Source: Telluria mixta (GTDB lineage: Bacteria; Pseudomonadota; Gammaproteobacteria; Burkholderiales; Burkholderiaceae_D). From it: a stretch of 64,000 nt of DNA. Every line of letters starts with the position of its first letter. Position 1 is the stretch's first letter. The notes below the pieces were generated by a model that searched no databases, was not told the origin of the DNA, and worked only from the letters and a program-made list of their open reading frames with translations. A program made the translations under genes and the position numbers. The stretch is taken from positions 7,130,001 through 7,194,000 of the forward strand of contig NZ_CP119520.1 in assembly GCF_029223865.1 (NCBI RefSeq), written 5' to 3'. Of the stretch, positions 52,357 through 63,325 are shown piece after piece.

Positions 52357-53322
52357 ATGACCCCGACCGCCCCCACCTTCGCCCACCACGACGCGCTGGC
52401 CGCGCTCGGCCGCAGTCTACAGGCCACCGGCTACCGTTTCGTGACCGTCACTCCCGCCACGCACCGCCGCGTCAACAATCGTCCGGAAAATGCCTGGGCC
52501 CACGACCTGCGCGGCGTGTTCGGCTGGAGCCGGCCGTACCGCACCGGCGTGCTGCCGGAGACCATCGACGGCCAACTGCGCGCGGCCGGGCTGGCGGTCC
52601 CCGAAGGCCCGGATGGCTGGCGTGCGGACGTGCGCGCCTCGACCATCGGCGACCACCTGTACTTCCACTCGGCCTGGCCGACATCCGACGAGGACGCCGT
52701 GTTCTTCGGCCCCGACACCTACCGCTACACGAGTGCCCTGACACGCATGCTCGGCCCGCACGGGGCACTGCGCCGGCCGGTGCGCCGCGCCATCGACATC
52801 GGTGCCGGCGCCGGCCCGGGCGCGATCGAACTGGCGCTGCGCTGCCCCGACGCCACTGTCTACGCGGCCGACATCAATCCGGCCGCACTGGCGCTCGCGG
52901 ATGTCAACGCGGGCCTGAACGGGGCGCACAACGTCGTACCCTGCCGCAGCGATTTGCTGGACGGGATCGACGGCGGCTTCGACCTCGTCATGTCGAACCC
53001 GCCCTACATCCTCGATCCGGACGAGTTGACGTACCGCCACGGCGGCGGCACGCACGGCGCCGAGCTGTCGATCCGCATCGTGCATGCGGCGCTGGACCGG
53101 CTGCATCCCGGCGGCAGCCTGCTGCTGTACACGGGCGTGGCCATCGTCGACGGCGCCGACCCGTTTCTCGCCGCCATCCGCGACCGTCTCGATGCGGACA
53201 CGGACGGCTGGTCGTACGAGGAGCTCGATCCGGACGTGTTCGGCGGTCAGCTGGGCTGCGAGGGCTATGAAAACGTGGAACGCATCGCGGCCGTGTGGCT
53301 GCACGCCATCCGGCGCGGGTAA
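52357..53322 (+). CDS. PrmC/HemK-like class I methyltransferase
   Basis: The 321-residue protein has an N-terminal helical domain and a SAM-binding core: RRAIDIGAGAGPGAIELALR (motif I), YAADINPAALALADVNA, and LVMSNPPYIL. The NPPY motif marks methylation of an amide or amino nitrogen. It differs from housekeeping PrmC by its long N-terminus (GYRFVTVTPATHRRVNNRPE), which matches a group of proteobacterial methyltransferases of unknown target. The start is uncertain (52345 or 52357). Neither has a clear ribosome site. Confidence 0.8.
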   Translation: MTPTAPTFAHHDALAALGRSLQATGYRFVTVTPATHRRVNNRPENAWAHDLRGVFGWSRPYRTGVLPETIDGQLRAAGLAVPEGPDGWRADVRASTIGDHLYFHSAWPTSDEDAVFFGPDTYRYTSALTRMLGPHGALRRPVRRAIDIGAGAGPGAIELALRCPDATVYAADINPAALALADVNAGLNGAHNVVPCRSDLLDGIDGGFDLVMSNPPYILDPDELTYRHGGGTHGAELSIRIVHAALDRLHPGGSLLLYTGVAIVDGADPFLAAIRDRLDADTDGWSYEELDPDVFGGQLGCEGYENVERIAAVWLHAIRRG

Positions 53323-53444
53323 GTGGCCAACCAAGCGCCCGCCGATCGAGACGATCGGGCAAAACGCTGCCGCATCCGGGCATGGCCGCCGCGTGCCCGC
53401 GCCCCGAGAATGACCTCCTCAGCACCATCACGAGGAGACCTGCC

Positions 53445-54443
53445 ATGCAAGCCGCACGCCCCGCTGTCGCTGCCGCGCCAGCCGTTCCGACCACCCTGTC
53501 TTATCTGCCCGTCGGCCTGTTCGGTGCCGTGATGGGCCTCACCGGCCTCGCGCTCGCGTGGCGCCTCGCGCACCAGGCGTTCGGCGCGCCGGCCATCCTC
53601 GGCCAGGCCATCGGCGTCGTCGCCGTGCTCACCTTCGTCGCGCTGGCGGTCGCGTACGGCGTCAAGGCCGCGGCAGGGTGGTCCACGGTGCGCGCCGAGT
53701 TCTCCCATCCGGTCGGCGGCAACCTGTTCGGCACGCCGCTGATCAGCCTGTTGCTGCTGCCGTTCCTGCTGGCCGACGTCAGCCTTGGCCTCGCCCGCCT
53801 TGCGTGGGTGCTGGGCGCCGTCGGGATGACCGTGTTCGCGTGGACCATCGTCACCCGCTGGCTGTCCGTGCGCCACACGCCGGCCCAGGTGGCGCCGGCG
53901 TGGATCGTGCCGGTCGTGGGCATGCTCGACATCCCGCTGGCCGCGCCGCTGCTGCACTGGGACGGCCTGCATGGCGTGATGGTGTTCGGCCTCGCCGTCG
54001 GCCTGTTCTTCGCGCTGCCGCTGCTGGGCATGCTGCTGTCGCGGCTGATCACGGAAGACGCCCTGCCGCCCGCGCTGCAGCCGTCGCTGCTGATCCTGAT
54101 GGCGCCGTTCGCCGTGGGCTACTCGGCTTACACGACCACGTTCGGGCAGGTCGATGCGTTCGCCCAAGGACTGGTCATGGTCATGCTGTTCCTGCTGCCC
54201 GTGCTGCTGGCGCGCCTCGTCCACCTGCCGGCGTGCTCGCCGTTCCGCGTGGCGTGGTGGGCCGCCAGCTTCCCGCTCGCCGCGTCGGCCGTGACGGCGC
54301 TGCGCTACGCGGCGGTGGCCGACAGCCCGCTCATGGATGCGATCGCGCTGCTCATCCTCGGCATCGCCACACTCGTCATCGCCCTGTTCGCCGTGCAGAC
54401 GCTGATGGGGATTGTGCGTGGCCGGCTGCGTGAACTGAGTTAG
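53445..54443 (+). CDS. TDT/SLAC1-family membrane transporter
   Basis: The 332-residue protein has about ten membrane helices, and GAGGAG precedes the ATG at 53445. The opening (LSYLPVGLFGAVMGLTGLAL, AWRLAHQAFGAP) and the repeated inverted helix pairs fit the TehA/SLAC1 family of anion channels and tellurite/dicarboxylate transporters. The ion carried cannot be read from sequence. A palindromic repeat follows its stop. Confidence 0.85.
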   Translation: MQAARPAVAAAPAVPTTLSYLPVGLFGAVMGLTGLALAWRLAHQAFGAPAILGQAIGVVAVLTFVALAVAYGVKAAAGWSTVRAEFSHPVGGNLFGTPLISLLLLPFLLADVSLGLARLAWVLGAVGMTVFAWTIVTRWLSVRHTPAQVAPAWIVPVVGMLDIPLAAPLLHWDGLHGVMVFGLAVGLFFALPLLGMLLSRLITEDALPPALQPSLLILMAPFAVGYSAYTTTFGQVDAFAQGLVMVMLFLLPVLLARLVHLPACSPFRVAWWAASFPLAASAVTALRYAAVADSPLMDAIALLILGIATLVIALFAVQTLMGIVRGRLRELS

Positions 54444-54547: not shown

Positions 54548-55276
54548 CTAGATGGTCACGAGGCCGTTCTTCATCGCCATCGCCGCCGCATGCCCGCGCG
54601 TGGAAACGTTCAGCTTGGCCATGAAGTTGCGCACGTGGACTTTGACCGTCCACGGGCTGATGCCGAGGATCGTCCCGATCGCCTCATTGGTCTTGCCGAC
54701 GCAGACCAGTTGCAGGACTTCGCGCTCGCGGCACGACAGCTCGACGTCCGGCGCGCGCTCCTTGAGCCGGTAGTGCGTGCTGAGCGCCGCGTGCAGGTGC
54801 GGCACGAGTAGCTGCAGCAGCCGCTGTCTTTCTGCGTCGCCGTCCGTCACGCCGGCAAAGCAAAAATAGCTGGTCGCGCCGCCGTGCAGGTCCTTCACGC
54901 CGTGCGCGATCATGTTGCGCATGCCGTGCTGCCGGAACGACGCGAGCCACCCGGCATCCTCCGGTTCGACGAACGCGGCGCGCGCGGTCTCGTCGAAATA
55001 GACGGGCGTGTCATGCATCAGCCAGTGGCGGATCATGGGGCTGGCGATGCGGCCGCCCCGGTCGACGATGCCGCCGACGAACACGTCGGGAAAGCCGGCA
55101 TTGACGACGTCCAGCACGGCCACCGGGGCGACCGTTGCGATGCCGCACACGAAACGCTCGTGCGGCAAAATCTGCTGCAGCAGCGGATACACGTCGTCCA
55201 GAAAGCCCGCGCGCGTGTCGATGCCATGGCAGGCGGAGAACAGGGCAAGGATGCGATGATCGATGGGTGAGTTCAT
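54548..55276 (-). CDS. LuxR-type transcriptional regulator
   Basis: The 242-residue protein has a C-terminal GerE/LuxR HTH (VELSCREREVLQLVCVGKTN, then ILGISPWTVKVHVRNFMAKL). Residues 1-165 form a GAF/autoinducer-like domain, resembling the EpsA group of LuxR proteins more than LuxR-LuxI pairs. No luxI gene is present. It lies 62 bases after the ferredoxin gene on the same strand, so it may be the last gene and the regulator of the acyl-assembly operon. Confidence 0.83.
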   Translation of the reverse strand: MNSPIDHRILALFSACHGIDTRAGFLDDVYPLLQQILPHERFVCGIATVAPVAVLDVVNAGFPDVFVGGIVDRGGRIASPMIRHWLMHDTPVYFDETARAAFVEPEDAGWLASFRQHGMRNMIAHGVKDLHGGATSYFCFAGVTDGDAERQRLLQLLVPHLHAALSTHYRLKERAPDVELSCREREVLQLVCVGKTNEAIGTILGISPWTVKVHVRNFMAKLNVSTRGHAAAMAMKNGLVTI

Positions 55277-55338
55277 GCCCGCAAGGATGCGCCATCGCGA
55301 CACGGCGCGCATGCCACATCCGTGGGGGGAAATGCGCC

Positions 55339-55662
55339 TCAGCGGACGAGTGCGGCCAGTTTGTCCGTGCGCGCGGCCCAGTCGGCGGCATCCGGCAGTG
55401 CCGGCTTGCGCTGCGTGATGGGCGGCCAGCGCCGCGCCAGGTCCTCGTTCAGCGCCAGCCAGTGCAGCTGATCCGGCGCCAGCCCGCTCTCCGCCACGAT
55501 GGCGCCGACGGGACACTCCACTTCGCACAACCCGCAATCGACACAGCGCTCCGGGTCGATGGCGAGGAAGTTCGCGCCTTCATGGAAGCAATCCACGGGA
55601 CAGACCTGGATGCAGTCCGTGTGCTTGCAGCCGATGCAAGGTTCGGTCACGACATACGTCAC
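55339..55662 (-). CDS. fdxA: 7Fe-type ferredoxin
   Basis: The 107-residue protein has cluster ligands in TEPCIGCKHTDCIQVCPVDC and ERCVDCGLCEVECPVGAI, the pattern of 3Fe-4S/4Fe-4S FdxA proteins, and the usual C-terminal helix (EDLARRWPPITQRK). It begins 11 bases after the fabG-like stop, so it belongs to the acyl operon. It could feed electrons to the diiron oxygenase encoded there. Confidence 0.93.
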   Translation of the reverse strand: MTYVVTEPCIGCKHTDCIQVCPVDCFHEGANFLAIDPERCVDCGLCEVECPVGAIVAESGLAPDQLHWLALNEDLARRWPPITQRKPALPDAADWAARTDKLAALVR

Positions 55663-55673
55663 GCTGCCTCCCG

Positions 55674-56426
55674 TTACGCGGTGAGGCCGCCGTCGACGAC
55701 GAACGTCTGGCCCGTGATGTAGGCGGCATCGCTGGAGGCGAGATAGGTCGCGAGCGACGCCACTTCGCGCACCGTGCCGAAGCGGCGCAGCGGGATGCCG
55801 GCGCCGAGGGACTTCAGCTTGGCCTCAGGGATGTCGGCCGTCATCTCGGTCGTGATGAAGCCCGGCGCGATGGCGTTCACCCGCACGTTGAAGCGGCCCA
55901 GTTCCAGCGCGAGCGAGCGGGTCATGCCGATCATCGCGGCCTTCGTGGCCGAGTAATTCGTCTGCCCCACGTTGCCCTTGAAACCGGACACGGACGACAT
56001 CTGCAGGATCACGCCGTCGCCCTCTTCCACCATGGCATGCGCGAAGGCGCGGGTGACGTAGAACGATGCGTTCAGGTTGGCGTTGACGACGTCCGTCCAC
56101 TGTTCGCTGCTCATGCGCATGAGGACCGCGTCGCGCGTGATGCCGACGTTGTTCACGACGGCATGCGGCGCGCCCCGCTCGACGAGCAGCCCGCGCGCCA
56201 GCGCGTTGACGGCCTCCTCGTCCGCGCTGTCGCAGCAGTGACCCGTCGCGTGCGCGCCGATGTCCGCCATCTCGCACACGAGTTCCGCGGCCGCCTCGTG
56301 CGAGCGCTGGTACGTGAACACAACGTCGTAGCCGGCCGCGCAGAACGCGGCGACGAGACCGCGGCCGATGCCGCGCGTGCCGCCCGTGACCAGTACCCAC
56401 TGTATCTTTACTGCGTTCGAATCCAT
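55674..56426 (-). CDS. FabG-like 3-ketoacyl-ACP reductase (SDR)
   Basis: The 250-residue SDR has the NADPH motif VLVTGGTRGIGRG, NNVGI, and the catalytic Ser-Tyr-Lys in SSVSGFKGNVGQTNYSATKA. It ends YITGQTFVVDGGLTA. It reduces 3-ketoacyl-ACP to 3-hydroxyacyl-ACP. Its start lies inside the end of the hydrolase gene (19-base overlap), which ties it to the operon. With the nearby ketosynthase, dehydratase and ACP it completes a chain-elongation set, except for an enoyl reductase. Confidence 0.92.
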   Translation of the reverse strand: MDSNAVKIQWVLVTGGTRGIGRGLVAAFCAAGYDVVFTYQRSHEAAAELVCEMADIGAHATGHCCDSADEEAVNALARGLLVERGAPHAVVNNVGITRDAVLMRMSSEQWTDVVNANLNASFYVTRAFAHAMVEEGDGVILQMSSVSGFKGNVGQTNYSATKAAMIGMTRSLALELGRFNVRVNAIAPGFITTEMTADIPEAKLKSLGAGIPLRRFGTVREVASLATYLASSDAAYITGQTFVVDGGLTA

Positions 56427-57202
56427 GAATGATAGTCCTTGCTTGAAGATGAATGATAGAGAAAACCGAGAATGGCGCCGCGGTAGGCGCCGGGGAATGC
56501 CTTGCGCACTTCCAGGTGGCCGCAGTCGGGATACACGCGCACGCTGGTCGCCCCGCAGGCCTCGCGCAGGCGCGCCACCTCGGCCGGTGCGATGAACGGG
56601 TCGTCGCCGCCGAACAGGAACAGCCGCGGCAGATCGTCCGGCAGCGGCAGCGAGCGGAAGATCGGACGCGTGCCCGTCGCATCGGCCCAGCGGCTCGTGC
56701 TCATGCCCCGCATGACGGCACCCGTCACGCCGCCGCCGAAGAAGCGCGCGACCGTCGCCGGCACGCTGTCGCACAGCACCGACGCGAACGCCGTGCGCCC
56801 CGTCGCGATGGCGTGCAGCGCGTGAAAGGCGCCAAACGACGCGCCCAGCACGTGCACGGGCAGACCGGGCCAGCGCTCGTGCGCCCATTCGCCCACGGCG
56901 ACGACGTCTTCGGCGAACGACACGCCGTCGACCGTGCTGCGGCCGAAGCCCTTGAAGTCGAAACCGACGACGTGGTAGCCGGCATCCGCCAGCCACTCGT
57001 GGTAGCCGTGGTTGAAGAACCAGTGCATGCCGTATTTGACGAACGGGTGGCACAGCAGGACGACGCCGCGTGCCGGCACGCGCCGGCTGGCGACCACCGC
57101 GCCGGCCAGCCAGCTGCCGTCCGTGCTCGTGTGGACGAACGGTTCCAGGCCCGCCGGGCCGTCGCCGCGCCAGCCGAACACGGGCCGGAACAGCGTTCGC
57201 AT
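56408..57202 (-). CDS. Alpha/beta hydrolase, possible thioesterase of the acyl operon
   Basis: The 264-residue protein has no signal peptide. Signatures are VVLLCHPFVKYGMHWFFNHG, then GFDFKGFGRST, nucleophile elbow VLGASFGAFHAL and a C-terminal VYPDCGHLEV with the His. The fold matches serine hydrolases of the lysophospholipase/acyl-thioesterase type. Release of the finished acyl chain from the ACP is a reasonable role from context. It begins 14 bases after the FAD enzyme stop, or at 57229 with overlap. Confidence 0.8.
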   Translation of the reverse strand: MRTLFRPVFGWRGDGPAGLEPFVHTSTDGSWLAGAVVASRRVPARGVVLLCHPFVKYGMHWFFNHGYHEWLADAGYHVVGFDFKGFGRSTVDGVSFAEDVVAVGEWAHERWPGLPVHVLGASFGAFHALHAIATGRTAFASVLCDSVPATVARFFGGGVTGAVMRGMSTSRWADATGTRPIFRSLPLPDDLPRLFLFGGDDPFIAPAEVARLREACGATSVRVYPDCGHLEVRKAFPGAYRGAILGFLYHSSSSKDYHSWIRTQ

Positions 57203-57216
57203 GAGAATCCCACCCG

Positions 57217-58728
57217 CTAGGCTGCCCATTGCTTCGCCTTCATCTCGGCATACCCGAACGCGGCCTCGTAACTGGGGCCGGCCACCCAGGCGCTGAGAAA
57301 ATGGACGCCCGCGATCGGGAACGCGTGGTGGAACACATGGCCGGACAAGTCCGTCCCCACCATCGCGCCATAGCCCGCTCCGTCCGTGTTGTTGGTAAAA
57401 CGCTCGTACGTGCGCGGCGTCGACACTTCCGTGTAGACGACATGCCCGCGCAAGCCCGGTTTCGCGGCATACAGCCGTTCGAGCATGACGTTCAGCGCGC
57501 GCGCCTTTTTCAGCTTGTAGGCGGGCGACCGGCGTTCCGGCCAGTGCGCCATCGTGTCCAGCACGTTCAGGCAGACGATGCGCCCGCCGCTCGGATTGAG
57601 CGCGTGGTAGTTCGTGACTTCCATGACGCTGTCGCGCCAGTAGGCCCGTTCGCACGCTTCGTCGCCGTCACAGACGGCGCGTGCGGCGCGGCTCGCGTCG
57701 GCGCCGGATGCGAAGATCATCGTCTCGGTGCTGGCGAGGCCGAGGTCCGCCGGCGCCGCGTCCGTCGTCAGGTACACGGTCGTCGTCGAGCGCGACGGTT
57801 TCAGGTTCTTCAGCTTGCGCCGTATGGGAGCCAACGCCGGCCGGTCGTCGAACAGGGTGCGCAGCGCGTAATGCGGCGCAGCGTTCAGGTACACGCGGTC
57901 CGCGTAAAAATCGCCCCTGGCCGTCGCAACGCCACGGACCTTGCCGGCGTCGTCGCTGAGGATCTTCCGGACCGCGGTCCCCAGCAGCACGTGGCCGCCG
58001 GCCGCGACGATACGGGCCGCGAGTACGTCCGACAGGCGCTGCGACGCGCCCTCGACGTAGGCATTGCCCTGCGTGAGCGTCGCGTACACGACGTGCAGGA
58101 AGTACAAATAGCCCAGGTCTTCCGGGAAGCCGCCCACGTAGATGCCGGTGGCCGCGAGGATCTCCCGCAGCCACGGGTCGTTGATGCGCTGCGCGAGCGC
58201 ATCGGCCACCGTCACGTGCTTCAGGTGCTTGTGGGCGTAGCGCAGCTGCGCGAAGTCCGGCTCGAAGGTCCCGTCCATCATCTGGAACTGGTGGTAGCCG
58301 TTGCGACCGTGGACCGCCACCTCGTCGAAGAACCGGTCCAGGCCAGCGCGCTCGTGCGGGAAGCGCTCGTGCAGCGCCTGGCGGAAAGCGTCGACGCCGT
58401 TGCCGAAGCGAATGGCGCCGCCGGGCAGGCAGGCCTCGAAATAATCGGCCGGCACCTTCAGGCCCAGTTCCGCATCGAGCCCGAGGTCGGCGAAGATCCG
58501 GCGCAGATTGCCGCCCTCCCCCATGCCGCTCAGCTTGTGCAGGCTGCAGTCGAAGGCGGCGCCCGCCTTCGGACGCTGGAACACGGTCGCATAGCCGCCC
58601 GGCACGCCGTGCTTGTCGATGACGAGGATGCGTGCGCCGGGATGCCGCTTCACCACCTGCGCGCCGAACGCGAGGCTGGTGATGCCGGCACCGACGCAGA
58701 TCGCGTCCCAACGGCTGCCGGCGTCCAT
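57217..58728 (-). CDS. FAD-dependent oxidoreductase, phytoene-desaturase/CrtI-like
   Basis: The 503-residue protein has an N-terminal dinucleotide motif (AICVGAGITSLAFGAQVVKR; ILVIDKHGVPGGYATVFQRP) and the CrtI/retinol-saturase-like C-terminus (FTNNTDGAGYGAMVGTDLSG, then HVFHHAFPIAGVHFLSAWVA). Such enzymes desaturate, saturate or isomerise polyene or acyl substrates. Its ATG overlaps the diiron gene stop by one base. No phytoene synthase is near, so a carotenoid role is unlikely. An acyl-ACP-bound or released polyene substrate is inferred. Confidence 0.85.
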   Translation of the reverse strand: MDAGSRWDAICVGAGITSLAFGAQVVKRHPGARILVIDKHGVPGGYATVFQRPKAGAAFDCSLHKLSGMGEGGNLRRIFADLGLDAELGLKVPADYFEACLPGGAIRFGNGVDAFRQALHERFPHERAGLDRFFDEVAVHGRNGYHQFQMMDGTFEPDFAQLRYAHKHLKHVTVADALAQRINDPWLREILAATGIYVGGFPEDLGYLYFLHVVYATLTQGNAYVEGASQRLSDVLAARIVAAGGHVLLGTAVRKILSDDAGKVRGVATARGDFYADRVYLNAAPHYALRTLFDDRPALAPIRRKLKNLKPSRSTTTVYLTTDAAPADLGLASTETMIFASGADASRAARAVCDGDEACERAYWRDSVMEVTNYHALNPSGGRIVCLNVLDTMAHWPERRSPAYKLKKARALNVMLERLYAAKPGLRGHVVYTEVSTPRTYERFTNNTDGAGYGAMVGTDLSGHVFHHAFPIAGVHFLSAWVAGPSYEAAFGYAEMKAKQWAA

Positions 58729-59624
58729 CACGAGACTCCCACCTTGCGCAGCCAGGCATACAGCGGCGCGAAGCGCTTCTCGTTGAGCGCCAGGCTCCGT
58801 TCCGAGAAGCGCACCGCGTCGATCGCGGCCTGGTCGTCGCAGGCGATCGGGAACGCGAACGACGTGTGGCGCGCGATCTCCGGGTTGTACGTGAACTGCG
58901 GGACGAGGCGCGCCATCAGGCCGAGCATCATCTGGCGCATCTGTGCGGCCTGCACTTCCGGCGCATGTTCGAAGAACGACTCGCCGACCCAGCGCCCGAA
59001 GGCGATGTGGCGCGCTTCCTCCAGGTGGTGCTGATGGAACATCTCGCGCGTCAGCGGTTCGACGACATCGTCCTGCGACACGAACATGGCGGACAGCTCG
59101 GCCACCCATTCGAGCAGCAAGGTCGCGATGATGCCGGCCACCGGATGCATCTTCGGCAGCTGCACCGTCAGCATCTCGTGCAGGCCGTCCGGTGGGCCGA
59201 ACAGCGGCAACCGCGCCAGCTTCATGTAGCGCCGGAACATCAGCGTGTGCATGATTTCCTCTTTCGAGAAGATCATCAGGTATTCGCGCACGTCCGGCGC
59301 CAGCGCATCCGCGTGGGCGTTCAGGTAGCCCATGTACAGCGGCGGCAGCGTCTGTTCGAGCAGGATGAACATCGACACGTCGCGCGCGTTTTCCAGCCAC
59401 AGCACCTCGTGGCGCTGCGCCTCCGTCAGCGCGTCGAACCACGGGGTGCCGTAGATCCAGCAGTGCTCCATTTTCTTGGGCACGCCCTGGCGGTCGACGC
59501 CCTGCCGCCACGGCACGACCTGGTTCAGGTCCATCGGCGCCGCGTGCGACTTTTCGATCAGGGTTTCCACGCCGAGCCGGCCGCGCGGGCTGAGCGGGAT
59601 GATGGGCGGTTGACCGGTCATCAC
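58728..59624 (-). CDS. AurF-like diiron oxygenase
   Basis: The 298-residue helical protein has ferritin-like diiron ligands in ENARDVSMFILLEQTL, FSKEEIMHTLMFRRYM, LEWVAELSAMF and HHLEEARHIAFGRW. This is the E/ExxH arrangement of the p-aminobenzoate N-oxygenase AurF family. Those enzymes oxidise amines or hydroxylate carrier-bound substrates. The start overlaps the ACP stop (ATGA), so the two are translationally coupled and the ACP-bound chain is a likely substrate. Confidence 0.84.
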   Translation of the reverse strand: MMTGQPPIIPLSPRGRLGVETLIEKSHAAPMDLNQVVPWRQGVDRQGVPKKMEHCWIYGTPWFDALTEAQRHEVLWLENARDVSMFILLEQTLPPLYMGYLNAHADALAPDVREYLMIFSKEEIMHTLMFRRYMKLARLPLFGPPDGLHEMLTVQLPKMHPVAGIIATLLLEWVAELSAMFVSQDDVVEPLTREMFHQHHLEEARHIAFGRWVGESFFEHAPEVQAAQMRQMMLGLMARLVPQFTYNPEIARHTSFAFPIACDDQAAIDAVRFSERSLALNEKRFAPLYAWLRKVGVS

Positions 59625-59872
59625 GCCACCGCCGCCTGCGGCTGGTTCGTCTCGATGTACGCATACAGGTCGCCCAGGTTCTTCAACTGGCCCGATGCGA
59701 ACAGCTCCGGCGTGATCTCGACCTTGAACTTCTTCTTGATGCGCAGCTGGATTTCCACGTAGTCCAGGCTGTCCAGTTCCAGTTCCTCGAACGTCAGCGC
59801 CGGGATGAGCGTCGACTCGTCGACGTCCTTCAGTTCCACGATCGCATCCTGCAGGAATTCGGCTACATTCAT
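59621..59872 (-). CDS. Acyl carrier protein, dedicated
   Basis: The 83-residue ACP has the phosphopantetheine Ser at S35 in ELDSLDYVEI. It differs from housekeeping AcpP by basic helix III (QLRIKKKFKVEITPELF) and an Asp-Ser-Leu-Asp context, and it is not next to fabD, fabG or fabF of primary metabolism. Its stop overlaps the diiron oxygenase start. It would carry the growing or tailored chain of this operon. Confidence 0.93.
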   Translation of the reverse strand: MNVAEFLQDAIVELKDVDESTLIPALTFEELELDSLDYVEIQLRIKKKFKVEITPELFASGQLKNLGDLYAYIETNQPQAAVA

Positions 59873-59888
59873 TTGTTACCTCCGTTGA

Positions 59889-60713
59889 TTAGTTAGGGAT
59901 ATCAGTGTCGAACCTGGCGACCAGGCCGACTTCCACCAGCATGACGAGACGGCCCGCACACAGGACCGGCAGCGCGACGACGCCGCCGATCTGATTGCCG
60001 CTGGCGAGCAATTCGGGCGTGAGCAAGGCGTGATGCAGTCGGTTCCACTGGTCCGCATCGGCGGAGGCGTCGAAGAACGCCGCGTCGAACGTGACCGTGT
60101 GGCTCGATTGCACGACCACCCGCGATGCAGGCGCGCCGCCGGACAGGCGCATCATGTGTGCGTGCGCCAGGCGTTCGAGGACGTGCAGCCGCGAGCGCAT
60201 GAATTGGGAAAACACGACCGCATCGAGTGCGATCCAGCGTTCGCGCACGTGCGGGTACGTGGCGAAGAACCGGTCGAGGTGCGCGCGTTCGAGCGGCTTG
60301 CCGCGCGGCGTGTCGCCCTGCAACTGGGCCGACGGGTCGCCCACCCGGCCATATGTGCCGCGGAAGTGTTCCGTCTTGCCCGTGGTGTCGTGCAGGCGGA
60401 ACGCGATACCGTCGGCCGCCGGCTTCGTCGTGAAGACGACGTCGCGGTCGTGCGCGATGGGGTTGCGCAGCAGGGTGCGGAACTTCATCCAGCCGTCGGG
60501 TGCGACGGCTTGCGACGCGGCTTCCTTCATCGGCATCATCGCGAGCATGCCGTGCACGATCAGCGCATCGAGGCCGGCCGCGCGGGCGTGCGCGAGGTCG
60601 AAGTGGATCGGATTGCGGTCGCTGGAAAACTGCGCCCACTGCTCCACCGCGGGCATGTCGAACGACAGCGTCAGCGGCATCGGCGCGGCGGCCAGGTGTT
60701 TTGCAGTCTGCAT
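59889..60713 (-). CDS. MaoC-like hotdog dehydratase
   Basis: The 274-residue protein has AGGAGAGG before the ATG at 60713. The hydratase-2 motif with catalytic Asp/His is FSSDRNPIHFDLAHARAAGL, followed by IVHGML. A second, degenerate hotdog half makes up the C-terminus (SSHTVTFDAAFFDASADADQ). It would dehydrate the 3-hydroxyacyl-ACP made by the FabG-like enzyme. It lies 10 bases from the ketosynthase gene and 16 from the ACP gene. Confidence 0.84.
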   Translation of the reverse strand: MQTAKHLAAAPMPLTLSFDMPAVEQWAQFSSDRNPIHFDLAHARAAGLDALIVHGMLAMMPMKEAASQAVAPDGWMKFRTLLRNPIAHDRDVVFTTKPAADGIAFRLHDTTGKTEHFRGTYGRVGDPSAQLQGDTPRGKPLERAHLDRFFATYPHVRERWIALDAVVFSQFMRSRLHVLERLAHAHMMRLSGGAPASRVVVQSSHTVTFDAAFFDASADADQWNRLHHALLTPELLASGNQIGGVVALPVLCAGRLVMLVEVGLVARFDTDIPN

Positions 60714-60723
60714 CGCCCTCTCC

Positions 60724-61965
60724 TTACGCGCGCCCGACGACGAGGGCGCTGTTGGCGCCGCCGAAGCCGAAGCTGACGTTGAGGGCCGCATCGATCCGCT
60801 CCACCTGGCGGTGTTCGTTCGGCGTGTAATCGAGGTCGCACGCGGGATCCGCTTCGTCCATGTGGATCGTGGCCGGGATGATGCCCGTCTCCAGCGTCTT
60901 CAGGCAGAAGATCGTTTCCATCGAACCGGCCGCGCCGATCAGGTGGCCCGTGTACGACTTGGTGCTCGACATCGGGATGCCGGGCGCGCCGTCGCCGAAC
61001 GCGGACTTGATCGTGTTCGTCTCGTTGACGTCGTTGATCGGCGTGGACGTGCCGTGCAGGTTGATGTAGCCGATGCGGTCCGGTGCCTGGCCGACGGCCT
61101 GCACGATCGCCATGTGGCGCGCGCGCAGGTCGTCGGCGGGCGCCGTCATGTCGTACGCGTCCGAGTAATTACCGTAGCCCGTGATCTCGCCGAGGATCGC
61201 GGCGCCGCGCGCCAGCGCATGCTCGCGCTCTTCCAGGCACAGGACGGCGGCGCCTTCCGCCAGCACGAAGCCGGTGCGGCGCGCGCTGAATGGGCAGCAG
61301 GCGCGGCGCACGTCGTGCTGTTCCTTGCTCAGGGCCTGGATGACGTCGATCGACCAGACGTTGAACGTCTCCTTCAGCGATTCGCTGCCGCCGGCCAGCA
61401 TCACCCTGGCGCGGCCGGACTTGATGACTTCATAGGCGTCGCCGATGGCGATGGTGCCCGTCGCGCAGGCCGCGACCGGCGTGTTCTGGTAGCCGCGCAT
61501 ATTCCAGTTCAGCGCGACGGCGGCGGTGCCGATGCTGTGCATGGACATCAGGGTGGCGAACGACGACGACAGGCCGCTCTCGCGGTAATCGTTGTTGTTG
61601 TCGTTGACCGAGTCCATGCCGCCCCAGCCGGTGCCGATGATGGCGCCGATGTCGAACGGGGATTTCACGAACCGGTGAATCTCGTCGGCGCTGCCGAAGG
61701 CCATCTGCAGGGCTTCGCGCGAAGCGACCAGGGCGTTCTTCGCGAACGTCGGCAGCATTTTCAGCACGGCTTTCGGGAAGCCGGCGTAGCGCTGGCGCCT
61801 GTCTTCCATGAAGCTGAAGAAGCGGGCATTGATCTTGGGGTCGGGGAACTCGGTCAGCTGGTAACCGACGCGGTAATTCATGATCGCGTCCCAGATTTCC
61901 GGGACGTTTTCGCCCAGGGCGGAGACGGCTCCGTAGCCGGTGACGACGACGCGTTTGGGGTGCAT
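60724..61965 (-). CDS. Beta-ketoacyl-ACP synthase, FabF-like, first gene of the acyl operon
   Basis: The 413-residue KAS has the catalytic triad C167 (TPVAACATGTIAIG), H304 (NLHGTSTPIND) and H341 (KSYTGHLIGAAG). GGAGAA precedes the ATG at 61965. The N-terminal region (NYRVGYQLTEFPDPKINARF) diverges from housekeeping FabF. It is a complete condensing enzyme rather than a chain-length-factor partner. It opens the operon KAS-MaoC-ACP-diiron-FAD-hydrolase-FabG-ferredoxin. No promoter is clear in the 220 bases before it. Confidence 0.93.
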   Translation of the reverse strand: MHPKRVVVTGYGAVSALGENVPEIWDAIMNYRVGYQLTEFPDPKINARFFSFMEDRRQRYAGFPKAVLKMLPTFAKNALVASREALQMAFGSADEIHRFVKSPFDIGAIIGTGWGGMDSVNDNNNDYRESGLSSSFATLMSMHSIGTAAVALNWNMRGYQNTPVAACATGTIAIGDAYEVIKSGRARVMLAGGSESLKETFNVWSIDVIQALSKEQHDVRRACCPFSARRTGFVLAEGAAVLCLEEREHALARGAAILGEITGYGNYSDAYDMTAPADDLRARHMAIVQAVGQAPDRIGYINLHGTSTPINDVNETNTIKSAFGDGAPGIPMSSTKSYTGHLIGAAGSMETIFCLKTLETGIIPATIHMDEADPACDLDYTPNEHRQVERIDAALNVSFGFGGANSALVVGRA

Positions 61966-62185: not shown

Positions 62186-62275
<90 letters not shown>

Positions 62276-62329: not shown

Positions 62330-63325
62330 TTAGCTGACCGGGACGCGATTCACCAATTCCCTCCCCTGCTCGAACGCCGTCAAACTCTCGATGGTCGTCC
62401 GCATAATCTGCCCGATGGCCTCGACGGTAAAGAACGCCTGGTGCCCGGTGACGATCACGTTCGGAAACGACACCAGCCGCTGAATGACGTCATCCGTGAT
62501 GATCGTCGACGACAAATCCTGGAAGAACAGGCTTGCCTCCTGTTCGTACACGTCGATCGCGAGACCGCCCAGCTGCCCCGTCTTCAGCGCGGCAATCGCG
62601 GCCTCGGTGTCCACCAGTCCGCCGCGGCTCGTGTTCACAAGGATGCCACCCCGCTTGGCCCGCGCCAGCGACGTCGCGTTCACGATGTGGCGCGTCTCTT
62701 CCGTCAGTGGGCAGTGCAGCGAGACGACGTCGCTGCAGTCCAGCAGTTCGTCGATGCCGACGTAGCGTCCGCCCAGCGCCTCGAACGCCGGCGACGGATA
62801 GCGGTCGTGGCCGACCACCGTGCAGCCGAAGCCGGTCATGATGCGCGCGAAGATCGTGCCGATCTTGCCTGTGCCGATCACGCCCACGGTCTTGCCGTGC
62901 AGGTCGAAGCCCATCAGGCCGTGCAGATCGAAGTTGCCGTCGCGCGTGCGGGCGCTCGCGCGGGCGATCTTGCGGTTCACCGCGAGCAGCAGGCCCACCG
63001 CGAATTCCGCCACCGAGTGCGGCGAATAGTCCGTCACGCGCACGACCGCGATGCCGAGCCGCCCGGCCGCGGCCACGTCGATGTGGTTGTAGCCGGTGGA
63101 GCGCGTCGCCACCAGGCGTGTGCCCTGCTGCGCGAGCAGCGCGAGGACCTCTGCGTCGACCGTGTCGTTGACGAAGACGCAGACGGCGCCGCAGCCTGTT
63201 GCCAGGGCGGCCGTCTGAAGCGTCAGGCGATCTTCCAGGAAGCGCAGGTCGTGGCCGGCTTCCCGGTTGGCGTCCGACAGCATCGACTTGTCGTACGGAC
63301 GGGCACTGAAGATGGCGGTTTTCAT
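62330..63325 (-). CDS. ldhA: D-lactate dehydrogenase (D-2-hydroxyacid dehydrogenase)
   Basis: The 331-residue enzyme matches fermentative LdhA: NAD motif VGVIGTGKIGTIFARIMTGF, substrate Arg in LVNTSRGGLVDTEA, Glu in AIDVYEQEASLFF and catalytic His in VTGHQAFFT. It reduces pyruvate to D-lactate with NADH. The N-terminus (KTAIFSARPYDKSML) is the E. coli LdhA type. It is 19 bases downstream of the GH5 gene start region on the same strand, but the products are unrelated. Confidence 0.93.
   Translation of the reverse strand: MKTAIFSARPYDKSMLSDANREAGHDLRFLEDRLTLQTAALATGCGAVCVFVNDTVDAEVLALLAQQGTRLVATRSTGYNHIDVAAAGRLGIAVVRVTDYSPHSVAEFAVGLLLAVNRKIARASARTRDGNFDLHGLMGFDLHGKTVGVIGTGKIGTIFARIMTGFGCTVVGHDRYPSPAFEALGGRYVGIDELLDCSDVVSLHCPLTEETRHIVNATSLARAKRGGILVNTSRGGLVDTEAAIAALKTGQLGGLAIDVYEQEASLFFQDLSSTIITDDVIQRLVSFPNVIVTGHQAFFTVEAIGQIMRTTIESLTAFEQGRELVNRVPVS

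Follow-up and report, generated by a model that had tools for sequence, protein, structure and literature searches.

The stretch of DNA analysed here, called the window below, comprises 64,000 nucleotides of Telluria mixta (contig NZ_CP119520.1, positions 7,130,001 to 7,194,000) and belongs to a genome of 7.44 Mb in a single contig. Its positions 54548-61965 are filled by nine open reading frames (ORFs) on the minus strand, referred to as the Massilia operon, that encode a beta-ketoacyl-acyl carrier protein synthase (KAS), a MaoC-type dehydratase, an acyl carrier protein (ACP), an AurF-like diiron enzyme, a CrtI-like flavoenzyme, a hydrolase, a FabG-like reductase, a ferredoxin (Fdx) and a LuxR-type regulator. 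A sequence-only reading had named these nine genes, described them as tightly packed and pointed out that an enoyl reductase, an acyltransferase, a chain-length factor (CLF) and a fatty acyl-AMP ligase (FAAL) were missing. Pfam and NCBIfam profile scores, compared with the family cut-offs, bear out all nine identities, and with these profiles neither the four missing enzymes nor any other adenylation enzyme was recognised among the nine genes. The packing is equally as described, with overlaps of at most about 19 nt and gaps of at most 62 nt. The junctions, read from the sequence, are a gap of 10 nt between KAS and MaoC, one of 16 nt between MaoC and ACP, TGATG overlaps at both the ACP/AurF and the AurF/CrtI junctions, a CrtI/hydrolase junction that is a 13-nt overlap if the hydrolase starts at the ATG at 57229 and a 14-nt gap if it starts at the ATG at 57202, an overlap of about 19 nt between hydrolase and FabG (ATG at 56426), and gaps of 11 nt between FabG and Fdx and 62 nt between Fdx and LuxR. 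The operon is flanked by a 2-hydroxyacid dehydrogenase gene at 62333-63325 (Pfam) and, on the other side, by a plus-strand ORF at 53295-54443.

The AurF-family ferritin-like diiron oxygenase (58728..59621, minus strand, from the ATG at 59621, with a GTG upstream at 59624) matches PF11583 with 67.7 bits against a cut-off of 29.6. Seven ligand residues, E89, E122, H125, E171, H198, E202 and H205 when counted from the ATG, were assigned by motif and spacing rather than by superposition, following the ligand list in PMC13061610, where the extra histidine is given as a hallmark of N-oxygenases. Every one of 27 aligned rows, that of the window among them, keeps all seven; in a second, more varied alignment of 19 rows, six of the positions do not vary and E89 is matched by a glutamate in 15. 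The top structural match was CmlI, with R2lox-type and R2 chains within 1 Z unit. The protein thus shares with the N-oxygenases AurF, CmlI and Dob3 the Pfam family, the seven ligands by motif, the ExxH pair, the E-27-H-4-E-3-H spacing and the ferritin-like fold, but it differs from them in other ligand intervals, in an identity of only 12-14% to CmlI and AurF in structural alignments, and in that its gene is embedded in an acyl-ACP operon without a recognised nitrogen donor. No relative of the protein was found in a viral collection, and among 72,556 plasmid records six held relatives, all below 28% identity.

The gene that follows encodes a flavoenzyme of the CrtI/CrtISO type (57217..58728, minus strand; NAD_binding_8 42.6 bits, cut-off 21.9) with the carotenoid-desaturase fold and the motif for flavin adenine dinucleotide. 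It stays under all the listed NCBIfam carotenoid cut-offs (94.1 of 586.9 for TIGR02730 and 62.5 of 238.1 for TIGR02734), and, unlike the setting of CrtI, gamma-carotenoid desaturase or CrtISO, the other eight genes of the operon include no recognised carotenoid gene.

The remaining genes are likewise all on the minus strand. The KAS (60724..61965) is of the FabF/KAS II type and stands single, without a CLF partner. Its domains PF00109 and PF02801 score 99.5 bits (N domain) and 98.2 bits (C domain), TIGR03150 gives 372.5 bits, under the fabF cut-off of 493.75, and the Cys-His-His motifs are kept (CATGT, NLHGTST and SYTGHLIGAAG). It is 52-70% identical to the KAS of related gene sets outside Massilia and 37% identical to the closest paralogue that its own genome encodes. 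Elsewhere in this genome (G000:C1:4797999-4801313) two adjoining KAS-like reading frames were seen, possibly the ketosynthase (KS)-CLF pair of a separate polyene-type cluster. The MaoC-type (R)-hydroxyacyl dehydratase (59889..60713, 274 aa) scores 31.8 bits against PF01575 (cut-off 27), a match that spans residues 22-59 only, and its D-x-N-P-x-H motif (D32, N34, P35 and H37) is invariant in all 13 aligned rows, the window's included. The ACP (59621..59872, 83 aa) matches PF00550 with 35.6 bits (cut-off 20.8) and carries the DSL phosphopantetheine motif. The alpha/beta hydrolase (56408..57229, or from the alternative ATG at 57202) is above cut-off for PF12146 and PF00561 and keeps its nucleophile motif, GASFG (GxSxG); it is the probable chain-releasing thioesterase or hydrolase. 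The FabG-like 3-oxoacyl reductase (55674..56426), a short-chain dehydrogenase/reductase, scores 195.2 bits against PF13561 and 229.8 against the subfamily NF009466 (above the cut-off of 222), with 268.6 against TIGR01830, under its cut-off of 297.75. The FdxA-type ferredoxin (55339..55662; NF045490 148.2 bits, cut-off 135) is a candidate source of electrons for the diiron enzyme. The last gene (54548..55276) encodes an EpsA-like LuxR-type regulator above cut-off for PF00196 (GerE) and PF03472 (Autoind_bind), with 114.3 bits against TIGR03020 (EpsA), under the cut-off of 170.

Whether such a gene set recurs across genera had been named in the sequence-only reading as the decisive test. Genomes were scanned with an alignment of the AurF protein, and the best 80 of 150 matches gave 77 loci (L029-L105); the gene set, here called the cassette, was counted in the 30 loci whose AurF-like matches ranked highest (L029-L058), the other 47 (L059-L105) being outside the count, and the ORF starts in the locus tables were set mechanically and are often too long. 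KAS, MaoC, ACP, AurF and CrtI are all present in 26 of these 30 loci, and in that order in 25, which supports co-conservation. The cassette loci span alpha-, beta- and gammaproteobacteria, and because 25 of 30 related loci repeat the gene order, the grouping is not due to chance. The one locus out of order is L051, in which two AurF genes precede KAS, and in L044, L049, L050 and L054 the AurF gene lies in other surroundings. All 26 cassettes have a FabG-like gene, 23 have Fdx and 14 the hydrolase; L046 has FabG and Fdx on the opposite strand, an ABC-transporter-like gene precedes FabG in L039 (cluster C22, checked with Pfam on its L052 member), and two further CrtI-like genes occur in nine (L034, L035, L037, L038, L040, L041, L043, L045 and L053). 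Over 17 dereplicated loci, the seven core proteins have pairwise distances that correlate with one another (Spearman 0.46-0.88); this was calculated without a species-tree control, and part of the correlation therefore comes from vertical descent that loci of one clade share.

Closest to home, the named genomes with the best AurF matches (95-96%) are four from Massilia, among them M. kyonggiensis and M. phosphatilytica, and in these four the operon and the flank past the LuxR end are collinear with the window at about 90-93% nucleotide identity. The cassette is rare: it was found in five of 62 genomes of its own genus, its own included, with one more that has a divergent AurF and CrtI pair, and in four of 249 genomes of a Pseudomonas genus, a count that takes in the genome at the centre of that draw. 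A reverse search with MaoC over the order returned one of 399 genomes, its own, although misses are possible since scoring was confined to the six leading first-look candidates of each genome; the AurF search over the same order reached E <= 0.001 in 27 of 399 genomes, with strong matches only in two, its own and G013, the latter with a FadD and enoyl-CoA hydratase context. The flanking 2-hydroxyacid dehydrogenase is present in 25 of the 62 genus genomes and is missing from two of the five that have the cassette (G418 and G446). We infer from this pattern that the cassette is a horizontally moved functional unit, and the acyl module, which is self-contained, is probably mobile. Just upstream of the operon, a tRNA-Ser(CGA) gene lies at 62186-62275 of the window, and the Massilia relatives L029-L032 have two copies of it at this place, with differing genes between them; the site may be an insertion hot spot.

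The neighbours of the cassette vary with the host. Genes for non-ribosomal peptide synthetases (NRPSs) adjoin it in Lysobacter (L046) and Pseudoalteromonas (L039), and in Verminephrobacter (L055) its neighbours are a ligase, a pyridoxal-phosphate (PLP) decarboxylase and two FA_desaturases. Next to the cassettes of L029-L058 no second type II KAS-like ORF was seen; a type I polyketide synthase (PKS) is present in L039. In many loci small, probably membrane proteins are encoded 3′ of the cassette (families of L037 17812-18243 and L069 18510-18926), with one unassigned small-protein family in 12 loci and DUF3995 in L042, L052, L056 and L069.

The cassette resembles the aryl polyene, cinnamoyl lipid and ishigamide systems in having a trans-acting KS, ketoreductase (KR) and dehydratase (DH) and a dedicated ACP without an enoyl reductase. 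The trans KR, DH and ACP by which type II polyene systems are recognised are thus present, but the KS-CLF heterodimer (or two KS) is absent: there is one FabF-like KAS without CLF, the dehydratase is of the MaoC type, and a conserved AurF-family enzyme, a CrtI-like flavoenzyme and an FdxA ferredoxin are added. Unlike the cinnamoyl-lipid type II PKS, the nine genes include no KS-beta, recognised isomerase or NRPS. Polyyne clusters such as those for caryoynencin and cepacin contain a FAAL and several membrane desaturases, and in them an ACP-bound chain is modified by iron-dependent oxidation. The cassette shares the latter feature with them, but the nine genes of the window include neither a FAAL nor a membrane desaturase; of the loci in which additional genes were looked for, that of Verminephrobacter has two FA_desaturases and a ligase. 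The thailandene synthase is an iterative type I PKS. In reviews the thailandene (org) cluster of Burkholderia thailandensis is labelled PKS, orgA-C, or trans-AT-PKS, and it was rejected as a relative, there being no modular or iterative PKS among the nine genes. In the full-text literature no paper was recognised as describing the gene set, in searches that were partly aimed elsewhere and that left MIBiG, antiSMASH and most subscription journals outside, and its novelty is provisional.

In nine distinct Pseudomonas-type loci (L036, L037, L038, L040, L041, L043, L045, L053 and L118) luxR and luxI lie directly upstream of the cassette, with luxI divergent from KAS; the strains behind L036 and L053 bear the name Pantoea, and the genomes drawn for the Pseudomonas genus included that of L053. 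Pfam, applied to one gene of each kind, gave 152.7 bits for Autoind_synth (PF00765) in the L040 luxI and 96.8 bits for Autoind_bind in the L038 luxR. These genes were compared with AurI/AurR of Pseudomonas chlororaphis PA23 by means of the aurI and aurR primers listed in PMC7048289, which land inside luxI and luxR of four Pseudomonas loci (L038, L040, L041 and L043) with 0-3 mismatches and as facing pairs 112-118 bp apart. The filter was loose (two primers, each with up to three mismatches) and ten loci passed it; L037 has three of the four sites at matching positions with 3-4 mismatches and was left out of the count, L045 has one site in place, and the matches in L033, L050, L064 and L085 were rejected as scattered chance hits. 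P. chlororaphis encodes a MaoC protein 94% identical to that of L040. Within this species aurI/aurR are present in strain JV395B and absent from JV497, and six unidentified metabolites are overproduced in biofilms of JV395B (PMC7415375), which is no more than a lead.

The intervals between luxI and KAS are also rich in palindromes of the form ACCTGT-N8-ACAGGT (up to three mismatches), with 5.65 per kb (18 sites) versus 0.32 per kb (59 sites) in the remainder of these nine loci, a count in which two of the L043 sites overlap, one L045 site lies at the very edge, the background is mostly coding and the limits of the intervals were placed by hand. A lux-box-like site with no more than two mismatches is present in the interval in eight of the nine loci. 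A first box pattern, CTG[GC]C...G[GC]CAG, had no match in any locus; the Vibrio fischeri-type box was suggested by an inverted-repeat scan and was hence selected with part of the data already in view. In a shuffle control, limited to five intervals because start codons were recognised only there, six sites were counted where the shuffled intervals held 0.07 on average and never more than 2 in 300 runs, the shuffle being a Markov resample rather than an exact dinucleotide shuffle and L053 and L119, the same genome, being counted twice; L120 was left uncounted because it repeats the genome of L041. According to PMC5371074, from 2017, the true targets of AurI/AurR had yet to be elucidated, and the cassette is a candidate for such a target. 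Judging from the adjacent genes and sites, the Pseudomonas cassette is probably under AurI/AurR quorum sensing, with AurR as the putative regulator. The legend of a supplementary figure of PMC5115851 mentions lipid biosynthesis genes and an ACP near quorum genes, so this neighbourhood may have been drawn before.

Taken together, the gene set is best read, with moderate confidence, as a dedicated type II acyl module that would make an ACP-bound unsaturated chain and have it tailored by the diiron enzyme and the CrtI-like flavoenzyme. In such a pathway, KAS, FabG and MaoC would elongate, reduce and dehydrate the chain on the dedicated ACP, with malonyl-ACP coming from primary metabolism, and since there is no enoyl reductase the chain would stay unsaturated. 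The AurF-family enzyme would then oxidise the ACP-bound chain with O2 as oxidant and with electrons arriving via the FdxA-type ferredoxin, and the CrtI-like flavoenzyme might desaturate, isomerise or aromatise it. In Massilia and in the Pseudomonas-type loci the alpha/beta hydrolase would free the chain; elsewhere it would pass on to the NRPSs (L046 and L039) or to the ligase, PLP decarboxylase and two desaturases of L055. The parts of the sequence-only reading that concern identities, compactness, missing enzymes and co-conservation have stood, and of the product class that it predicted, an unsaturated, oxidised acyl chain can soundly be inferred. As to the diiron enzyme itself, action on the acyl chain with oxidation of carbon is somewhat favoured over oxidation of nitrogen.

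Several observations weigh against this interpretation. The diiron enzyme carries the seventh histidine of N-oxygenases, which by the criterion in PMC13061610 argues for N-oxidation. More distant AurF and CrtI loci in Bacteroidota have a benzoate-CoA-ligase-like gene, with anthranilate synthase genes in five of 12, pointing to an arylamine there. On the side of regulation, L037 has luxI and luxR but no lux box, and the Massilia window has neither a lux box upstream of KAS nor a luxI in the operon, nor does that operon contain aurI/aurR, so quorum control is claimed for Pseudomonas only. Finally, in P. chlororaphis PA23 deficient in acyl-homoserine lactones (AHLs), quantitative PCR showed aurI up and aurR down (PMC7048289), which is a poor fit with simple activation of this promoter region by AHL.

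The strongest competing explanation is that the diiron enzyme is a true N-oxygenase like AurF, CmlI, VlmB and Dob3, that a gene outside the operon supplies the nitrogen for an amine, nitro, hydroxamate or azoxy group on the chain, and that an N-oxidised acyl compound results. It is a serious possibility, though the less probable one: the complete ligand set with its N-oxygenase-type histidine and the structural match to CmlI fit it, as do the tie between the AurF relative LitN and hydroxamate formation in lipothrenins (PMC10616846), the PLP decarboxylase beside the Verminephrobacter cassette and the anthranilate synthase genes of the Bacteroidota. Among the nine Massilia genes, however, no aminotransferase, amino-acid ligase or other nitrogen donor was recognised, and the nearest AurF relatives outside the cassette adjoin fatty-acid ligases and enoyl-CoA hydratase: a fatty-acyl activating long-chain acyl-CoA ligase is above cut-off in L049 and L121, and a FAAL-like ligase (under cut-offs) lies beside the relative in L054. 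In L044, L049, L050 and L121, AurF relatives of 48-52% identity were seen beside an AMP-binding ligase and an enoyl-CoA hydratase, and L044 and L049 add a family of amine-oxidase-type flavoproteins; this setting is a second acyl-linked context of AurF.

Farther out, L059-L070 have homologues of CrtI, AurF, FabG and KAS without a match to MaoC or Fdx, and most of L071-L105 have AurF alone. The 12 loci L059-L070 are from Bacteroidota (Chryseobacterium, Flavobacterium, Arcicella and Hymenobacter), and their CrtI and AurF proteins are 27-34% identical to those of the window. Many of them contain genes for benzoate-CoA-ligase-like, KAS III, ACP, metallo-beta-lactamase-like and UbiH-like monooxygenase proteins, and also FabG, KAS, CLF-like and (by eye) FabZ-like genes. 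These clusters bring to mind an alkylquinolone pathway whose chain is unsaturated. A Bacteroidota-like AurF and CrtI pair, 41-43% identical to Chryseobacterium proteins and adjoined by a benzoate-CoA-ligase-like gene and a KAS III, was also seen in a Massilia-genus genome (L117, genome G432), in which the AurF search found no cassette.

Three further explanations are improbable to differing degrees. The CrtI-like enzyme might aromatise a cyclised polyene, giving an aryl- or cinnamoyl-type acyl group that is handed to NRPSs or freed; this is unlikely, even though the polyene-type KAS/KR/DH/ACP set is accompanied by a desaturase-fold flavoenzyme, two cassettes lie beside NRPS genes, and the cinnamoyl pathway is proposed, in PMC6510318, to consist of polyene formation, isomerisation, 6-pi closure and desaturation. 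The nine genes lack a KS-beta/CLF and a recognised isomerase, the Massilia operon has no NRPS, and a CrtI-like nature of the cinnamoyl desaturase was not found in the passages on this pathway in PMC6510318. Slightly less likely again is a housekeeping operon for lipid modification, such as desaturation or repair of membrane fatty acids, rather than for a specialised metabolite: the FabF-, FabG- and ACP-type genes, and the fact that no transporter or resistance gene was recognised among the nine, would suit it, but the cassette's restriction to a few genomes of its own genus and of the Pseudomonas genus, its varying partner genes and the quorum-type genes and sites in Pseudomonas would not. Least likely of all, the module would feed a special acyl chain to the LuxI synthase and so yield an unusual homoserine lactone instead of an antibiotic-like metabolite, as the divergent luxI directly beside KAS and the use of acyl-ACP by AHL synthases could suggest; against this, eight of the 26 cassette loci, each of them Pseudomonas-type, have the luxI family, which is missing from the fetched sequence of the other 18, and the AurI products reported are ordinary C4-C8 and 3-oxo AHLs, also on expression in E. 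coli (PMC5115851).

The acyl module with its two tailoring enzymes can be taken one step further, to a proposal that is tentative and, as a whole, rather doubtful: the cassette would represent an undescribed, widespread and horizontally moved family in which a seven-ligand AurF enzyme oxidises the carbon of an ACP-bound polyene together with a relative of carotenoid desaturases, and its product in Pseudomonas would be the missing output of AurI/AurR. If true, a compact metabolite family with a defined gene signature would extend over alpha-, beta- and gammaproteobacteria, the AurI/AurR system of biocontrol Pseudomonas would gain a concrete candidate target, and the cassette would offer a test case for the oxidation of carbon as well as nitrogen by the AurF family.

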